Positions 26,053 to 47,004 of a DNA stretch of 64,000 nt are shown piece by piece (position 1 is the first letter of the stretch; every line of letters begins with the position of its first letter). Made by a program: the position numbers and the translations under genes. The DNA comes from Biomaibacter acetigenes (GTDB taxonomy: Bacteria > Bacillota > Thermosediminibacteria > Thermosediminibacterales > Tepidanaerobacteraceae): positions 1,116,001 through 1,180,000 of the forward strand of contig NZ_CP033169.1 of assembly GCF_003691585.1 (NCBI RefSeq), given 5' to 3'. The notes beneath the pieces are model-generated. The model was given only the letters and a program-made list of their open reading frames with translations. It was not told the origin of the DNA and made no database searches.

Positions 26053-26316
26053 ATAAAACAACAAAAATATTATCGATTAAGAGCCACAAATTTCAACGTA
26101 AATCTATAATATTATTTCAATTGATATGAAGTATGGTGAGCGGAAATCTAATTCTTACTTGTGCCGCTTTTAGGCATAGATTTTTTTGGAACCAAAAAAT
26201 TTTTTTTTGAAATCCCAAAAATAAAGAGGATTTTTTGTTTGTTTAGAGAATATATATAAATAATAAAAGCATCAAATGAAAAAGACATTTTTGAAAGGCT
26301 TTAAGGGAGGCTAAAC

Positions 26317-39592: not shown

Positions 39593-40318
39593 TTAATTTC
39601 CGAATTGCTGAGGTTGTAATAATCTAATTTGGAATTTTTCTTTTAAAAACTGGTATCTTCCTTTGCTCATATAAGCTTTTTCATTATAATCATAAAAACT
39701 TATCTCATATGTGTCTCGGAGGTTTTCTATTTTTTCAACCATTTCCATGTTCACAATGTATGATTTATGGACTCTATAAAAATTACCGTTTAATGATGCT
39801 TCGAGATTTTTTAGATGATCAGTGCATTCATATGCCTTTTTTTTTGTATGTATTTTTGTTTTTTCACCTAATCTTTCAATAAATATTATATCTTTAAGAT
39901 TTAAAAACAGGATACCGTTTCCAGATTTTACAGGAAGCTTTCCAATAGCTTTTAACTTACGGTTGAGTATATTGTTTTCACATTTTATTGTCACGAAATT
40001 TAATGTTTCGTGAAACCTCTCAAAGTCTATGGGTTTTAAAATGTAATCGTAAGGATGAACTTCAAAAGATTCTGTGGCATAACTTGAGTACCCGGTTATA
40101 AAAACCACAAATACATCCGGATTTAGAGAAACTGCTGTTTTTGCTACATTTATTCCATTAATGTCGGGCAGCTCTATATCCAAAAGTAAAATTTGAGGTG
40201 ATTCTTCTCTGATGATATCCTCCGCTTCTTTTCCTGTGCGAGCAGTATATATTTCTTCTATAAAGCTTGTGAGTTTTTCATCGGAATTTAATTGTATGGT
40301 ACCGTTATATTTATCCAT
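39593..40318 (-). pseudogene. LytTR-family response regulator (AgrA-like), N-terminus missing and fused to kinase tail
   Basis: From about residue 23 on this is a LytTR response regulator: phospho-Asp in ILLLDIELPD, switch Thr in FITGYSS, Lys in YDYILKPI, and a C-terminal LytTR DNA-binding domain (GNGILFLNLKDIIFIE, FYRVHKSYIVN). The first ~22 residues are not a receiver start; they are the end of the upstream histidine kinase (MDKYNGTIQLNSDEKL). A deletion has removed the kinase stop and the receiver's first strand with its acidic pair, so phosphorylation is probably lost. It is the last gene of a decayed agr-type locus. Confidence 0.8.
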
Positions 40319-40980
40319 TATCTTCTTTACTATATAAAGGCCGAAGCCTCTTGTATCTTTATGTTTTGTACTATAACCCGCCTCATATATTTTTTTAAAA
40401 TCTCTTCTTTTATAGACGATCCATTGTTTGATATTTTAACTATATAAAATTTCTGTTTTCCAGCCACTTCAAAATATATAATCCTGTTACTTTCTCTTTC
40501 CTTGACCGCTTCTATGGCATTATCGATCACATTGCCCACAACAGTGGAAAGTTCAAAGGAATCCAGTCAGGTATGATATATCCCCAAGCCATTGTATTTT
40601 ACTTCAAAATTAATATTGTTTCTCCGCATCATTTCAATTTTGACATTTATCAATGCCGTCAATGCTGTATCGCCCAACCTCAGTATTTTTTCTATGGACC
40701 TGTAATTTCCAACTATTTTGTTTAAATATTGCTTTAACTCTTCGTATTTTCCCAAAAAAGCGAGGGATTGGATAGTTTGCATATTTTCATGCCTTTCAGC
40801 CCTAAATGTCTTTATAAGCTCCTCGATATCCCTTAAATAACACGTTAACAACTCAAGTTCTGTCTCTTTTTTTGAAGATGATTCGATATATTTCAGCGAA
40901 AAGTAAAATTAAAGGAATATTATCAAGAAACCTTCCGGGATTGATTGAAATACGGTCACATACCATGGAATGGGAAACAT
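40259..40980 (-). pseudogene. AgrC-like sensor histidine kinase remnant
   Basis: ATG 40980 behind GGAGGG opens FPIPWYVTVFQSIPEGFLIIFL, like the first membrane helix of AgrC-type kinases; a TAA and then FYFSLKYIESSSKK follow in frame, so most of the membrane sensor (normally six helices) is gone. The His box (ERHENMQTIQSL), N box (GNVIDNAIEA) and G box (TRGFGLYIVKK) remain. There is an in-frame TGA at about 40567 and a one-base loss in an A-run near 40392. It has multiple lesions and cannot signal as read. It lies between agrD-like and agrA-like genes in the usual agr order. Confidence 0.78.
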
Positions 40981-41120
40981 TTCCATCCCTCCGGCAAGTC
41001 AAAATATAAATATAAAAATCAAGCATCGATCCCGAATTATCATATACTCTTTTGCCTGTCCAAACGGACCTCCGAAACATTTTAGATAATTGAGGATGAT
41101 GCCTTATTAAAATATGGCAA

Positions 41121-41250
41121 TTACTTTAAATCTTCAGGAATATCCGGCTCATAAAATATCCACATACTTTGAGGGCTAGCCCCTATAAAGGCTACAGCAG
41201 TGATGAGATGCAAGAGAGGTTAGAAAGTATGTGCGTACTTTTTTAAACAC
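41121..41250 (-). pseudogene. AgrD-like cyclic autoinducer precursor, Ser type, frameshifted
   Basis: GTG 41250 follows AAAGGGGGCGGG. The start FKKVRTYFLTSLAS is an amphipathic leader. After a two-base loss in a CT repeat (near 41205) the text continues ITAVAFIGASPQSMWIFYEPDIPEDLK and stops at 41121; the C-terminus YEPDIPEDLK is the conserved acidic tail of AgrD-type cyclic lactone peptides. The ring would be S-M-W-I-F, with Ser in place of the usual Cys (lactone, not thiolactone). Too small for standard gene finding. The agrC and agrA remnants follow on the same strand. Confidence 0.68.
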
Positions 41251-41280: not shown

Positions 41281-41363
41281 ATTTTTTTTACTTTACGTAT
41301 TCTCTGTTCGTCTTATATTTCCTGCCGATGTACCGCAACTGGCGTATTTTGAGGGTTGAATGG
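41281..41363. repeat. Direct repeat copy 1 upstream of agrD-like gene (agrB stub or IS end)
   Basis: About 60-70 bp here recur at 46902-47004 in the same orientation with only about two differences in the core, including CCTGCCGATGTACCGCAACT and GGCGTATTTT, ending with GGGTTGAATGG. On the minus strand it is open and ends IGRKYKTNREYVK-stop (41288), about 40 bp before the agrD-like start, the place where agrB ends in agr operons. It could be the 3' stub of agrB or the end of an insertion element whose short repeats (AACTGGCGTATTTTG) remain. Confidence 0.7.
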
Positions 41364-41395
41364 CGTAATGGTTTGATTGAAAACGGTCTTTTTTA

Positions 41396-41424: not shown

Positions 41425-41459
41425 TTGCATAAGGTAATCGGATAAGCAGGGTGTGGTTG

Positions 41460-41491
41460 CCACCTCCTTGATACTAGAAGGAAGGAGGTGG
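41460..41491 (+). promoter_or_regulatory. Hairpin hiding the toxin Shine-Dalgarno sequence
   Basis: CCACCTCCTT (41460-41469) and AAGGAGGTGG (41482-41491) are a perfect 10-bp inverted repeat with a 12-base loop. The right arm is the toxin's ribosome-binding site, so the primary mRNA should be poorly translated until refolded or cut. This is a known feature of TxpA/BsrG-type toxin mRNAs. Confidence 0.8.
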
Positions 41492-41497
41492 TGCGGT

Positions 41498-41608
41498 ATA
41501 AGTACATATGAGGCTCTGTCATTAATGATTGTATCCTCTATGTTTACCGTATCGCTGATTTCCTTGATTATTGTTTTAATTAAGGCAATAAATAAAGGAA
41601 AAAAATAA
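41498..41608 (+). CDS. Small hydrophobic type I toxin (TxpA/BsrG/Hol_Tox-like), apparent ATA start
   Basis: Frame 41498-41608 encodes 36 residues: STYEALSLMI, then a single membrane helix (FTVSLISLIIVLI) and a basic tail KAINKGKK. The start STYEALSLMI is the hallmark of TxpA/BsrG and 'holin-like' type I toxins. A strong site AAGGAGGTGG ends seven bases before codon 1, but codon 1 reads ATA, not ATG; no ATG/GTG/TTG in frame precedes Glu5. Either a rare ATA start, a disabling mutation, or a sequence error. The product would insert into the membrane. Confidence 0.75.
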   Translation: MSTYEALSLMIVSSMFTVSLISLIIVLIKAINKGKK

Positions 41609-41688
41609 CAATCACCCTGCTCGGCCATAGGGTGATTGTTATTTAATAACCCGTGGCAACCGCACTTTTGCGGTTCCGATTACCTTTA
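41600..41688 (-). ncRNA. Predicted antisense antitoxin RNA (RatA/SR4-like)
   Basis: On the minus strand TTTACA (41716-41721), a 16-bp spacer and TATAAT (41694-41699) form a good promoter; the RNA would start near 41688, contain a small hairpin (AACCGC/GCGGTT) and end at the terminator shared with the toxin gene near 41600. It overlaps the toxin's last codons and 3' end, the usual layout for txpA/RatA and bsrG/SR4, where the RNA pairs with the toxin mRNA and triggers its decay. Confidence 0.62.
41608..41643. terminator. Shared bidirectional terminator of the toxin-antitoxin pair
   Basis: AACAATCACCCT (41608-41619) and AGGGTGATTGTT (41629-41640) form a perfect 12-bp stem. The minus-strand side is followed by a run of T (ATTTTTTT), the plus side by TTATTTAATAA, so it can stop both convergent RNAs. 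Confidence 0.8.
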
Positions 41689-41749
41689 TCTATATTATAA
41701 CATTTTTTTCGCATATGTAAACAACAAAATATTCATTGCATTTTAGGGG

Positions 41750-42427
41750 TTAAATTATCGCACCGTCCCGCAGCCTGATGCGCCTTTTGGCGTGAGCCAT
41801 TACTTCCTGGTCGTGGGTTGCCACAACTACCGCTAAACCTTGACAGTTTAATTCATCCAAAAGTTCCATTATACTATCCCGCGTAGCAGTATCCAGATTT
41901 CCGGTAAGTTCGTCGGCCAGGAGCACCTTTGGGTTGCGTATCAAAGCCCGGGCGATAGCAACTCTCTGCTGCTCACCACCGGACAATTCTCCGGGTCTAT
42001 GTGAGACCCGGTTTGAAAGACCTACCCGCTCCATCAGTTCCATGGCCTTTTTCCTGGCTGAATTGTATTTTTCGTAGGGCAGCAGTGGAACCATCACATT
42101 TTCAAGGGCCGTAAGCTGCGGCAGCAAGCGGAAATCCTGGAATACAAATCCGACAGTCTTGGCTCGCAGTGATACCAGATCTTCCTGGCCGATATCGCAG
42201 GTGTTAAAACCTTCCATGTATACCTCCCCTTGAGTAGGTATTTCCAGCGCTCCGATCATGCGCAGCAAAGTGGATTTCCCCGAGCCGGAATGGCCTATCA
42301 CCGCAAGATAATCATCATCGTCAATATCCAGGGTTATATCCTGCAGTGCCCTTATCTCGCCATTACCCATAGGATAGATGTGTGTTACATTTTTTAACTT
42401 GACAACGGATTCTTTGTTGTTAATCAC
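41750..42427 (-). CDS. ABC transporter ATP-binding protein (MacB/LolD type)
   Basis: A 225-residue ATPase from ATG 42427, overlapping the end of the permease/peptidase gene by 4 bp. Walker A GHSGSGKSTLL, Q-loop FQDFRLLPQLTALENV, signature LSGGEQQRVAIA and Walker B VLLADELTGNLD are intact; the Asp-Glu pair is present. It belongs to the family serving FtsX/MacB-fold permeases (peptide or lipoprotein handling). The partner permease upstream is broken as read, so function may be lost. Confidence 0.9.
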   Translation of the reverse strand: MINNKESVVKLKNVTHIYPMGNGEIRALQDITLDIDDDDYLAVIGHSGSGKSTLLRMIGALEIPTQGEVYMEGFNTCDIGQEDLVSLRAKTVGFVFQDFRLLPQLTALENVMVPLLPYEKYNSARKKAMELMERVGLSNRVSHRPGELSGGEQQRVAIARALIRNPKVLLADELTGNLDTATRDSIMELLDELNCQGLAVVVATHDQEVMAHAKRRIRLRDGAII

Positions 42428-45400
42428 GGCAGTTCCCCCTTCCCGGCGATTTCCCGCAATATGCGTTCCATGAATAATATGTCTTTACCCATAGTTTGGG
42501 GTATGATGCGGTCAACAGTGTCTTTTTTGGTATTCGCAAAAGGTGACGGCCTCCATAAAGGTGCGGTCGGTATACCGGCATCCAGTAAACGGCCTCCCAG
42601 GCCCAATGGAAATGCGGGCTTAAAGTCCATATTCATCTCTTTGCCTATTTTCTCCGCCGCAGCCATCCATTCATCCGGTGTTGTCAACATATCCTGGTCT
42701 TCGGCCAGCACGCGCCGGCGGACGGAAGGATAGCCAAGGTCCCATAATCCCGAGTGGTGTTGGGGCTGTTGTCTGACAAATGGAATTAAGTCTTCGGGCG
42801 TTAAATCTTCTCCTGTAGGATTTATATCCCTTGGCCTGCCGTAGGTAATATCCTCTCTGTAACCGAAGACCAGCGGGTTATTTGACCCCAGCCGGCTCAA
42901 TGCTACCGCAGCCTTGGGCAGAGTATGCTTATCAAGGTACAGGGCCAGCCCTCCGTTATATTGAGCGTCTCCGCCGGCAGCCCACAGAATTCTGACTGGG
43001 ACGGGCAGCGGGTTTTGTTTTAATGTGCGGGCCAATAAAGCCGCTGCGGCAGCACCGCTGGCATTATCGCCGGCACCGGGACCTATGCTGCCGTGATTTG
43101 CTGCTATCAAAATATCCTGTTTTTCCGGTGATGTACCGGGGATGTCAACCCATATGTTCTCCGAATGAAAGCCCGGAATTATCTCCATCACGTCAAGGCT
43201 GAGACCGACAGGGCCGATCTCTTCCGGAAGAGTGCCCGGATTTACGCCCACCACCGCCAGCGGATCATCTTTTAATACATTTTTCAGTGACTTCCGAAAC
43301 TCTTCGGATGAAGCAGCTTCTACCAGGACTATATGCCCGCTTGTTTTTGCATTCTCAGTTTTTTCTCCTGTTAGTATTACAGCATGATCATCGTTCAAAA
43401 TATACTTGTCACCGGCTTTAGCCGTTGAGAGATCCAATGCAAGATAAGAAAAATCCAGGGAAGTGCCCGATACTTCCAGCTTCGAACCGGGGCCCAAACT
43501 TCTGACCGGCGGTATCTCTATGTGCTCGCTTTGCACATCCAAGCCTGCTTTTTGCAGCCAATGCAGCGATGGCAATCCAGCGTAAGGTTTGTGTTGGTCT
43601 TGACCGCATGTTTTTGTTTGTTTTTGAACCCTGTGCATTGTATAAGGATGATATCCAGACGTTTGTGGAAATTCCGATCGCTGCAGGAAAAGCCAAGATG
43701 AAACTGATTGAAAGCCCTGATGGTATGGAATATTCATTGTATATGGCCACTACCATCAGATATGCCATGCCAAAGGCCGATAATAACGCCACGACTACAG
43801 GAAAGAGTATCTGAGGAATGACCAGCTTCTGCAGATGTCTTAATCTCCAACCCAGCTGCTGGAGCAATACTAGGTCCCGGCGGCGAAGATCCAGGTATGA
43901 CAGGATGGAATCCAGGCAGGTCAGGCCAACCAGGATCGTCGATGCCTCACCTATAAGCATCAGCCATATCCCCGCCCTGGCGTGTATAAAATCGCCCAGT
44001 CTTGTGGTGACGGCTTGATGGGCCACCGCCGCTCGGGCCAGCCATGCAAAAATGCTTATGGTTCCGCCGATAACCAGTTGCACTGCCATAAACCGCAATC
44101 GTCCGCCATAATACATTAAATCCTTTCTTATGACAGTGCTTATACCTTCGGTTTTACGGTATTCGGAACCGCTTTTTGTGTAGGGTTTGTTTTTGGAGCC
44201 TTCACGGGATTTAAAAAATTTGGATACACCCCGGTGGGTCGTTACCGCAAATGTCATTCCGCCGGTAAAAGTAACTATCAGCCACAGCAACAAAAGCCTG
44301 TTCCATTCAACATGCAATATTTCATGAAACAATACATTGGCTGCCATTGACAATAAGGCGGCTATGAACCATATTATCAAAACTTCCAGTGATATCATTT
44401 TGGCTATGGTACCGCCCTGCCATCCCAGGGTTTTTAAAATATCCAATTCAAATTTTCTCTGCCAGAGGTATATGCTGCTCCGGTTATGGACAAATATGAA
44501 TCCAACAACAATAAACAATAAGGTCAGAGCCATGGAAAAAAGGCTGAAGATGTTTTGTATCCGGGTGGCTGCCCCCAGGCTGATCCATGATGTCTTGGCC
44601 AGGCCCAGAGGCGGAACGTCTTTATATCCCGGGATATTAAGCTTAACCTCCTGCATCGATGTGCCGGCAATTATATCCACGTGAAGGCCGGTTCGGGCCA
44701 CGATTTCTTCGGCTACCTGCCGGATTTTGGCCTGTCCTTTTTCATCAAAACGGTTGACGTCGGCCACCCTTACCCTTATCACATCGATGGGATGATCTCC
44801 TTCTATAATCTTAGCCGCTTCCAGCGTTGTAAATCCATGGGCCGCAGGCAATTGGACGGTTCCCGGTGTTATGGTGGGATGAAGTTTTACCGGCTCCGAA
44901 AGCTTGTTTCCATTTATATCGCTTTCAAGCAGCATCTCTTCCGAACCATATATGCCAAGAGGGGACTTGGCCAGCTCATTTTGCTTCGGCCCTCGGAAAC
45001 TTACCGTACCAATGGGGTTGAGCTGAAATACGGGTTTGCCCTCAGTTGCCAGATCAACAGCGGATTTCCCCTTCGCTTGAAGGTCATGAAATTGTACCTG
45101 GCCGTCACGTGTACACGTCGGCTCAGGGTAAAATATTAAAGAATTATCTTGTGCAGCTTTATAGTGGATTCCCCGGGTGGTGTAAAACTCCGTTGCCGGA
45201 GCAATGCGCTATAATCCCTGGCTGGTTGTAGAAATAATCCATTGAGGGTCGATCTCTATCCCGGTAGTTTGAAAGGCTCTAAGATATTTAGTAAGCTCGA
45301 TCTCTTTCGTTGCTTTGGTTGTTGCCGGCAACTGCAGCAATCTTTCATCAATATTCTTTTTTAAAAGTAAATCTTTCTCCGTTTTTTGAGTTCTCAAAAG

Positions 45401-46252
45401 ACGGATGGAATCTATCAAGTCCGGTGGCAAATCTAACTTTTCCTCAGTGATTTTTACACTGAGCGGGATTGGGGTTAGTTCATTTATAAGAAGAGGGATC
45501 TGATAAGCATTTGTAGTGATCTTTGCTCCAAAACTTATTTTTTCAACAGGCACAGGGCCTGGCGATAAATATCGGCCCTTTTGCAGAGCATCACTTAAGC
45601 CCACAAGTTTTGCTTCACTTTCCGGGTCGATGGCTACAAGAAAATTATATATATGAGGTAATTCGAAGTATAAAAATAATCTTTCGGAATTACTCCTCAT
45701 TGAAAAACCGTTGTTAGTATCTATTGATGAAATGGCCACTTCCGGTACTTTTAAATTAGGTAATGATGCAATAGATACAATTGTACTTTCGCCAATTTTA
45801 TATTCTTTATATCCGTCACTGGTAAAAAAATCCAAGCCCAGCCGAAGACTCTGGCCTGCGGGGCGTTTTATCTGGACACTGTCAATACTGTTTGTAAAAA
45901 ACCCCAGGGCGGCGATGGGAGCAGCTAATTCCACCCCGGGAATTGATTGTATTTCTCTCCAGGTTTCAATAGAGATTCCGCTGTCTCCATCATAATTTTT
46001 GCATACATAATTCGGTTCCATATAATCCCGATCATCTGCTCTAATAGTATTTTGGCCGGTTTCATTCGGCTTGACCAGAATATCGTAAACATCCCTTGAA
46101 TATTGAGCGATATCTTGTGTTACACTGACCCTGGTTTGCTCTAATGAAAATAACCCCATGCAAGTGCCCATATGTATGGCGAAAAGGCCTAACAGCAGGC
46201 TTGCCGCTTGAATCCTGTAATGCACCAGGGTCCTGTATATATATGCTAACAT
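42424..46252 (-). pseudogene. FtsX/MacB-type permease fused to an M28-like peptidase ectodomain, interrupted
   Basis: Read through, one gene of about 1,270 codons starts at 46252: a membrane helix (IQAASLLLGLFAIHMG), a large extracytoplasmic domain, FtsX-type helices (residues about 480-880), a helix WIAIAALAA and a C-terminal M28-like domain (GAGDNASGAAAAALLARTL). Breaks: an in-frame TAG at 45209-45211 and a frameshift near 43555. The M28 metal site is poor: ANHGSIG lacks the usual Asp after His and WAAGGDAQ lacks the Glu pair, so the ectodomain likely binds rather than cuts peptides. The ATPase gene follows with a 4-bp overlap. Confidence 0.75.
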
Positions 46253-46453: not shown

Positions 46454-46624
46454 TTAATCTAGTTCGACTACCACAGAATCATAATCAGTGTTTCCATTTG
46501 ATACAGTAAGCTTTGGATACCATTTATATCCTGAAGGCCTACCGGTTAAATTATAACGATGAAAGTAGACATCTGTCTTGTACGAGGTAGAATATCTTTC
46601 GCTATTTCCATCACCATAACTCAT
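46454..46624 (-). CDS. Short reading frame of 56 residues, possible C-terminal gene fragment
   Basis: ATG 46624 to TAA 46454 encodes a polar, Tyr/Ser/Asn-rich sequence (SYGDGNSERYSTSY, NLTGRPSGYKWYPKL, ending DYDSVVVELD). There is no clear ribosome site, and the in-frame stop above it is close (about 46650). It looks like the exported tail of a longer protein, perhaps a fragment. I recognise no family. It sits between the second agrD-like gene and the permease. Confidence 0.4.
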   Translation of the reverse strand: MSYGDGNSERYSTSYKTDVYFHRYNLTGRPSGYKWYPKLTVSNGNTDYDSVVVELD

Positions 46625-46692
46625 TTTAATAATTTTTATTGCTTGACAAAGTTACTATCCCCACATATAATCTCTCTGGTTACTTTTCTTTT

Positions 46693-46724
46693 TGAAGAAA
46701 GGTTATACAACACCTTTCTTCTTT
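46693..46724. other. Stem-loop at the end of the second agrD-like gene
   Basis: GAAGAAAGG and CCTTTCTTC form a 9-bp stem with a 10-base loop containing the stop codon of the agrD-like gene; T-rich sequence follows on the plus strand. It may be a terminator. Confidence 0.45.
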
Positions 46725-46864
46725 TTAATTGGCCCTTTCAGTATTTCCGGGACTTCGGGCTGATAAAACCATCTTATGCACAAAGGCTTAGCAGTAGTGG
46801 CCGCACTGATAAGTGTGAATAAACATACACCGATTATTATAATTTTTCTTTTTAATTCTATCAT
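46703..46864 (-). CDS. AgrD-like cyclic autoinducer peptide precursor, Cys type
   Basis: ATG 46864 follows GAAGGAGGGGAG. The 53-residue product has a basic start (IELKRK), a hydrophobic leader (IIIIGVCLFTLISAATTA), then KPLCIRWFYQPEVPEILKG. A Cys followed by bulky residues and then YQPEVPE closely resembles clostridial AgrD peptides (Cys ring of five followed by HQPEEPKSL). The predicted ring is C-I-R-W-F. No AgrB gene for processing is present, only the shared repeat upstream, and no dedicated AgrC follows. Confidence 0.68.
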   Translation of the reverse strand: MIELKRKIIIIGVCLFTLISAATTAKPLCIRWFYQPEVPEILKGPIKKKKGVV

Positions 46865-46901
46865 GGCTCTCCCCTCCTTCTATAATTTTGTATATTTTGG
46901 C

Positions 46902-47004
46902 TATTTTTTACTTTATGTATTCTCTGTTCGTCTTATATTTCCTGCCGGTGTACCGCAACTGGCGTATTTTGCACCCTAACTGGCGTATTTTGGGGGTTGA
47001 ATGG
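46902..47004. repeat. Direct repeat copy 2 upstream of the second agrD-like gene
   Basis: Second copy of the sequence at 41281-41363. It carries an extra 21-bp unit, so AACTGGCGTATTTTG appears twice (46957-46971 and 46978-46992). The minus-strand reading TGRKYKTNREYIK-stop (46908) ends about 45 bp before the agrD-like ATG. Both copies end with GGGTTGAATGG. Confidence 0.7.

Follow-up and report, generated by a model that had tools for sequence, protein, structure and literature searches.

A cyclic pentapeptide derived from an orphan AgrD has been found by mass spectrometry in C. thermocellum (Clo1313_2818, PMC5322536; this and the following comparisons draw on parts of the papers cited). Like the AgrD gene described here, Clo1313_2818 lies outside an apparent agr operon and has a five-residue ring that ends just before a Tyr; its ring is a lactone (Ser), whereas ours carries a Cys, and the sections of that report used here mention no antisense RNA. 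With the clostridial AgrD family (TIGR04223) our gene shares the leader helix, the Cys core and the Y.PE.PE.LK recognition stretch, but it differs from them in a 10-residue tail, GPIKKKKGVV, that holds a predicted antisense terminator, and in having no adjacent agrB. The predicted layout of its 3′ end resembles that of par/Fst, where the 3′ end of a small peptide mRNA is overlapped by a short convergent antisense RNA with a terminator hairpin, RNA II of par being a convergent RNA of about 40 nt (PMC7472228). Unlike par/Fst, the peptide gene is here a Cys-type agrD without an Fst-type family match, the T-run lies on the antisense side only and secreted-protein genes are often next. The prgQ/Anti-Q system of pCF10, a case of countertranscript attenuation, offers another parallel, since a signal-peptide gene heads the operon and the counter-transcript acts before the downstream genes (PMC7117660); it differs in its peptide and in its opposing promoter, from which the prgX mRNA is made as well, and attenuation at agrD is presumed. 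The C. difficile SpoZ RNA was proposed to be antisense to another gene, CD16671, and in the portions of the open-licence PMC literature searched, including PMC10301443, PMC5797083 and PMC10602386, we found no cis-antisense RNA on agrD. The RNA predicted below, if real, would bring cis-antisense control to an AgrD gene, link peptide quorum sensing to convergent-antisense (type I) control, and provide a natural case in which residues of a protein are dictated by a terminator on the opposite strand. The question of orphan AgrD function also becomes directly testable.

The window, that is the whole 64,000-nt stretch analysed (C1:1116001-1180000), belongs to a genome made of one contig, C1, of 3,398,311 bases. 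A first-pass annotation had reported in it a 53-residue precursor without giving its strand; the frame is present, on the minus strand, and the claim that it is intact with a strong ribosome site held, given an ATG-TAA frame with AAGGAGGGGAG just upstream (Table 1). As judged from its profile score and core residues, the gene is an AgrD homologue, the Cys-type precursor of a small dispersed paralogue family. It scores 26.3 bits against NCBIfam TIGR04223 (quorum_AgrD, cut-off 19), the kind of profile check that the annotation had called for, and a six-frame search of its own genome with this model returned 8 places at or above the cut-off, with scores down to 19 bits, and a ninth at 10.3. Pfam's own AgrD model, PF05931, did not detect the gene and was dropped as a test. 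The predicted ring, C29-I-R-W-F33, is followed by the recognition stretch Y34-QPEVPEILK and finally by the extra tail; the motif reported earlier for the end of the precursor is thus there but not quite terminal, as PIKKKKGVV comes after ...EILKG. We predict a ring closing at F33 because the C. thermocellum ring ends before a Tyr (PMC5322536, as far as drawn on here). The Cys and VPEILK are invariant in a 6-row family alignment and the Cys is found in 10/10 copies, whereas the tail is absent from the listed canonical AgrDs, whose ends come soon after the P..L(K/R) stretch. The gene has the TIGR04223 score and the core Cys with recognition stretch that mark an AgrD, and lacks the adjoining AgrB, which is customary but, as the C. 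thermocellum orphan shows, not indispensable to the definition.

Table 1. Positions within the window of the Cys-type agrD gene, its putative control elements and the neighbouring agr remnants.
Feature	Position	Strand	Basis or remark
Decayed agr locus remainder: sensor remnants, kinase pieces, agrA without start	39593..41080	-	Comparison with the G001 locus
Ser-type agrD, frame-shifted	41119..41250	-	One exact box at 41337-41347
56-aa ORF after agrD, where other copies have a secreted-protein gene	46454..46624	-	Possibly a remnant
Antisense promoter TTGACA-17-TATAAT	46643..46671	+	12/12 consensus match
Predicted antisense RNA, ~50 nt, convergent with agrD	46678..46727	+	Ends inferred from promoter and terminator
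Candidate antisense intrinsic terminator GAAGAAAGGT-loop-ACCTTTCTTC-TTTTT, across last agrD codons and stop	46694..46726	+	Sequence, folding, conservation
Cys-type agrD-like gene, 53 aa, ATG to TAA	46703..46864	-	TIGR04223 match, family alignment, pN/pS
Ribosome-binding site AAGGAGGGGAG	46869..46879	-	Shine-Dalgarno-like, read from sequence
Promoter/5′UTR segment	46904..46987	-	84-nt repeat, 89%, upstream of broken Ser-type agrD (41284-41367)
LytTR/AgrA-like box pair ACGCCAGTT-12 bp-ACGCCAGTT, upstream of agrD	46957..46988	-	Sequence and genome pattern search

We found ten Cys-type copies, seven of them intact, in three genomes of one bacterial family. The window's own genome has five, of which the window copy, 326608 and 322609 are intact, 2802848 has a stop inside the ring and 1226890 is 5′ truncated; G001, of the same genus, has two intact copies, and G004, of another genus in the family, has two intact and one frame-shifted. 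The homologues of the window peptide in these genomes are 62-73% identical to it, with one frame-shifted copy at 48%. TIGR04223 matched three of the five other intact members tested, the 322 and C26 copies giving no AgrD profile match. A family profile run across 26 genomes of the class found the same three carriers, and its fourth match (E 8e-4), in G025, has an agrB next to it and is a canonical AgrD. A contig scan of 84,980 species, from which records near the window's own were possibly left out, confirmed nine loci: the two relatives account for five, Caloranaerobacter for two that are canonical, and the remaining two are weak. Likeness among the copies is about 80-98%, and some of them are found in islands common to different genera; certain copy-bearing islands of the window's genome and G004 are 97-98% identical over 2.4-2.6 kb, which makes exchange or recent transfer between genomes likely. 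A phage origin was considered and set aside, since none of the 33 stretches matched in viral contigs was confirmed. The label of orphan given by the first-pass annotation is right in that no agrB or agrC adjoins the gene, but it falls short of what is seen: the paralogues form a dispersed family, their antisense element is conserved, and the window copy has an agr-type promoter.

An antisense RNA about 50 nt long is predicted opposite the 3′ end of the Cys-type agrD, convergent with the gene. Its promoter is the only one on either strand of the window to match 12 of 12 consensus positions (spacers 16-18), and its terminator starts 22 nt further on and reads GAAGAAAGGT-TATACAAC-ACCTTTCTTC-TTTTT. 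All ten Cys-type copies have, on the opposite strand, a promoter with 10-12 of 12 positions and a terminator 22-25 nt beyond it, a combination that occurred in 0-3 of 500 shuffles per copy. It was found in none of the five Ser-type agrD copies of the window's genome and G001, and in none of the 23 canonical agrD genes that could be evaluated, each from a different genome (26 loci less L055, which is Cys-type and positive, L056, which is misplaced, and L036, which ends 4 nt past the stop). Such pairing is not rare as such, since 3 of the 30 promoters in the window with at least 10 of 12 positions have a terminator of this kind after them. The predicted RNA folds as a single stem-loop in all five copies folded (z -2.8 to -4.8, the window copy at -4.3); in five copies, folding of the sense strand near the stop was less marked (z -1.3 to -3.2). 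A terminator on the sense strand was rejected: there the hairpin runs on into A-rich sequence, not T, and a terminator-like T-run was seen on the antisense strand alone. Nor could the 3′ element be assigned to a known RNA family, since Rfam at gathering thresholds gives only an M-box within the window. Three copies with a broken ORF also keep the antisense element intact, which is consistent either with a role extending past the peptide or with decay that is recent.

The pattern of substitution within this element was compared by site class over eight of the ten copies, the near-duplicates G001 C26 and G004 C34 being dropped. Pairwise differences per site averaged 0 for the T-run, 0.013 for the stem, 0.04 for the -10 and 0.11 for the -35; the averages elsewhere were 0.27 (spacer), 0.20 (5′ segment from promoter to stem), 0.17 (loop), 0.14 (agrD codons ahead of the terminator) and 0.54 (flank before the -35). 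Substitutions largely spare the -10, the stem (19 of 20 columns invariant) and the T-run (5 of 5). The only change in the stem, in G001 C3, gives a G-U pair that leaves the stem whole in the antisense RNA, and a mismatch in the sense RNA. No pair of the hairpin has changed on both sides, so there are no compensatory base changes and the case for the hairpin rests on site-class conservation, folding and this strand-specific wobble. The stem and T-run are written in the agrD codons AAA AAG AAG AAA GGT, and the tail codons show no synonymous difference in 69 site-comparisons; only the 322 copy differs there in an amino acid, with I in place of V. The 17 codons before the tail, which cover the core and the recognition stretch, have a pS of 0.49, a pN of 0.11 and a pN/pS of 0.23 and look to be under purifying selection; these counts use five of the seven intact sequences, in pairs that are not independent, and the simulation treats changes as independent. 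With the tail free of synonymous change and the pN/pS of the core low, the constraints on an AgrD peptide and on an RNA element of the opposite strand seem to overlap. These rates also bear on another explanation, namely that the gene encodes an AIP precursor, orphan or cheater, that is under no special RNA control, and that the shared 3′ element is a leftover of recent duplication. The likeness among copies and the islands common to genera would agree with it, but within the same 100 nt the fewest differences fall in the -10, the stem and the T-run, next to synonymous sites that differ at 0.49 per site, and we hold it to be very improbable. The gene context gave no positive evidence for the cheater signal that had been suggested in the first-pass annotation.

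The neighbourhood of the copies raises the question of whether the downstream gene is the true target of this arrangement. In 6/10 copies, an ORF with a signal-peptide-like start (judged by eye) follows after about 75-105 nt, and broken or truncated relatives of such secreted-protein genes follow three more (2803b, 1226 and G001 C3); one of the downstream proteins has a Germane domain and another is weakly C39 peptidase-like, under the cut-off. If control of the secreted-protein gene were the main role, agrD would be a leader ORF with an RNA switch and its peptide a minor product, an idea with which the antisense promoter, placed between agrD and the next gene, and the c-di-GMP-I riboswitches found within 400 nt upstream of 3/10 copies are also consistent. 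The pN/pS of the core codons suggests, however, that the peptide sequence matters, and in the window the next ORF has only 56 aa, no signal-peptide-like start and no family over cut-off, yet agrD is intact; we therefore regard this explanation as decidedly unlikely. Rfam found no c-di-GMP-I riboswitch within the window itself. Seven c-di-GMP-I riboswitches were seen near agrD copies and sigma-factor-like genes (L114, L115, L116, L118 and L119).

Upstream of the window agrD, 9-bp direct repeats 12 bp apart form candidate LytTR sites, in the 9-12-9 layout published for such sites (PMC6193735, in the part drawn on here). The exact pair CCAGTT-N15-CCAGTT occurs ten times in the genome, five of them before agr genes, namely the window agrD, two Ser-type agrD (227 kb and 2,803 kb) and two putative sensor genes (229 kb and 2,800 kb). 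With one mismatch allowed the pair has 66 matches in the genome, against 25 for a reversed control pattern; the single box (up to 2 mismatches) is not enriched, with 71 matches against 148. Within 400 nt upstream (346 for one copy) the exact pair is found in 2/10 copies, the window one and the broken 2803b, which lies after a Ser-type agrD, and G001 C3 has agr-upstream-like sequence from about 720 nt upstream. The boxes are thus limited evidence for LytTR control of Cys-type agrD. Besides the 84-nt repeat shared with the broken Ser-type gene, the window copy has a 130-nt stretch, extending to the ribosome site, with 88% identity to the G001 Ser-type leader, and this suggests that it acquired the promoter of the neighbouring agr locus.

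That neighbouring locus is itself decayed. The first-pass annotation was correct in reading the Ser-type copy 5.5 kb away as broken, as its GTG frame runs VFKKVRTYFLTSLAS and then into a stop, the core VAFIGASPQSMWIFYEPDIPEDLK being in another frame. It was also borne out that no agrB or kinase gene adjoins the Cys-type gene, in so far as none is intact; a decayed agrC-like kinase and a truncated agrA remain at 39.6-41.1 kb on the same strand. Compared with G001, the window locus (39.6-41.25 kb) lacks agrB where G001 has one, and its agrA is without the first 27 residues. Elsewhere in the genome, where the annotation had proposed to look for it, there is an intact agrB of 216 aa (C1:229579-230226), about 0.93 Mb from the window agrD; with the profile hit above, both things on whose absence the agr reading was to be given up are therefore present. 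It is the only intact agrB of the genome, the second having an internal deletion. Its product has R68, G72, G73, H75 and C82, all five being common to 25 of 26 alignable AgrB loci (29 loci were selected without regard to the R/GG/H pattern, 26 aligned there and three did not, and L088 has K for R). An intact agrB with conserved residues elsewhere in the genome makes processing in trans possible, and to that extent the earlier proposal that the peptide is processed by an AgrB encoded elsewhere may stand. It counts against this proposal that the resident AgrB belongs to a Ser-type locus and would have to act on a Cys-type substrate.

The intact agr locus has a hydrophobic 158-aa ORF, a putative AgrC sensor for which no Pfam match was found, a separate GHKL kinase ORF and agrA. 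AgrC appears to be split there (L114:7065-9785, C1:229064-231784), with the 158-aa kinase-less ORF before agrB and the GHKL kinase ORF after agrA. Relatives of the putative sensor occur in 6/7 other genomes tested, besides its own, G004 being the exception. In the second agr locus (L115:3186-5679, C1 ~2.797-2.800 Mb) the putative sensor, agrA and kinase ORFs are kept and agrB is internally deleted, so that this locus could use AgrB only in trans. AgrD was found over the cut-off in 27 of 61 genomes and AgrB over the cut-off in 26 of those, the exception again being G004, whose AgrD matches are Cys-type. G004, which is 99% complete, keeps two intact Cys-type copies with no AgrB and no putative split-AgrC sensor detected, although, as a draft of about 40 contigs, its agr locus could have been missed. 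Intact copies without a detectable AgrB or sensor speak against simple AIP production, and they also count against the proposal of processing by a distant AgrB. They would be expected if the AgrD-derived peptide were now a membrane toxin, held off by the antisense RNA as in a type I toxin-antitoxin system and no longer processed by AgrB; so would the par/Fst-like convergent layout (PMC7472228, in part), the several copies per genome, some of them broken, and a peptide that, in the family alignment, has a hydrophobic N-terminus and a basic tail. The overlapping terminator already accounts for the basic tail, however, and the core and recognition residues (Cys, FY.P.VPEILK) are AgrD-like and seemingly under purifying selection, which is unexpected for a membrane toxin. 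Since, in addition, the peptide has no toxin family match and the T-run is on the antisense side only, unlike the bidirectional terminator shared in par, we find a toxin unlikely.

The reading that we hold to be probable, if only just, is that of a Cys-type AgrD precursor with its own convergent antisense RNA, subject to LytTR activation, AgrB processing in trans and antisense repression. Its computed part comprises the AgrD homology, the conserved antisense signals, the dual constraint, the agr-type boxes, the shared promoter and the one intact AgrB elsewhere. An AgrA-like LytTR response regulator would activate the window agrD, and the distant AgrB would cleave the peptide and close the C29-F33 thiolactone. 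The antisense RNA would be made constitutively and pair with the 3′ end of the agrD mRNA, probably loop to loop through complementary 8-nt loops, and would lower agrD output or, presumably by attenuation, cut agrD off from the downstream gene. Peptide would then appear only when sense transcription exceeds the antisense RNA. A more speculative extension, which we consider doubtful, is that the precursor was captured into a type-I-antitoxin-like unit that spread as a cassette before secreted-protein genes and persists without AgrB/AgrC, the peptide serving as a signal or a weapon and an RNA threshold, not agr, deciding when it is released. As part of this same proposal, the antisense terminator would have been written in the precursor codons, thereby adding a Lys-rich tail to the protein.

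Several other elements were seen around these genes. The stretch L122:6880-6963 carries the antisense promoter region and the first arm of the stem but no agrD; a short ORF whose start is signal-peptide-like lies downstream of it, and the stretch is by these features a cassette remnant. Cys-type copies in L116 and L122 have HTH_16 proteins as neighbours, one of which also has a sigma-70 region 4. An ABC exporter cluster (41750-46252), with an ATPase, an FtsX permease and an M28-like peptidase, separates the two agrD genes of the window; its permease and peptidase frames look, by eye, broken or fused. The three promoter-terminator pairs of the window are the agrD antisense, one on the minus strand at 26096, where a 10-of-12 promoter is followed by a 10-bp stem and a T-run, and one opposite a toxin-like Hol_Tox ORF (PF16935, 43.6 bits; 41453-41721, plus strand). 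The latter, a natural positive control, consists of a promoter TTTACA-16-TATAAT (41721, minus strand) and a 16-bp terminator. A similar Hol_Tox-like ORF (L120:10501-10656) adjoins the agr locus of G001.
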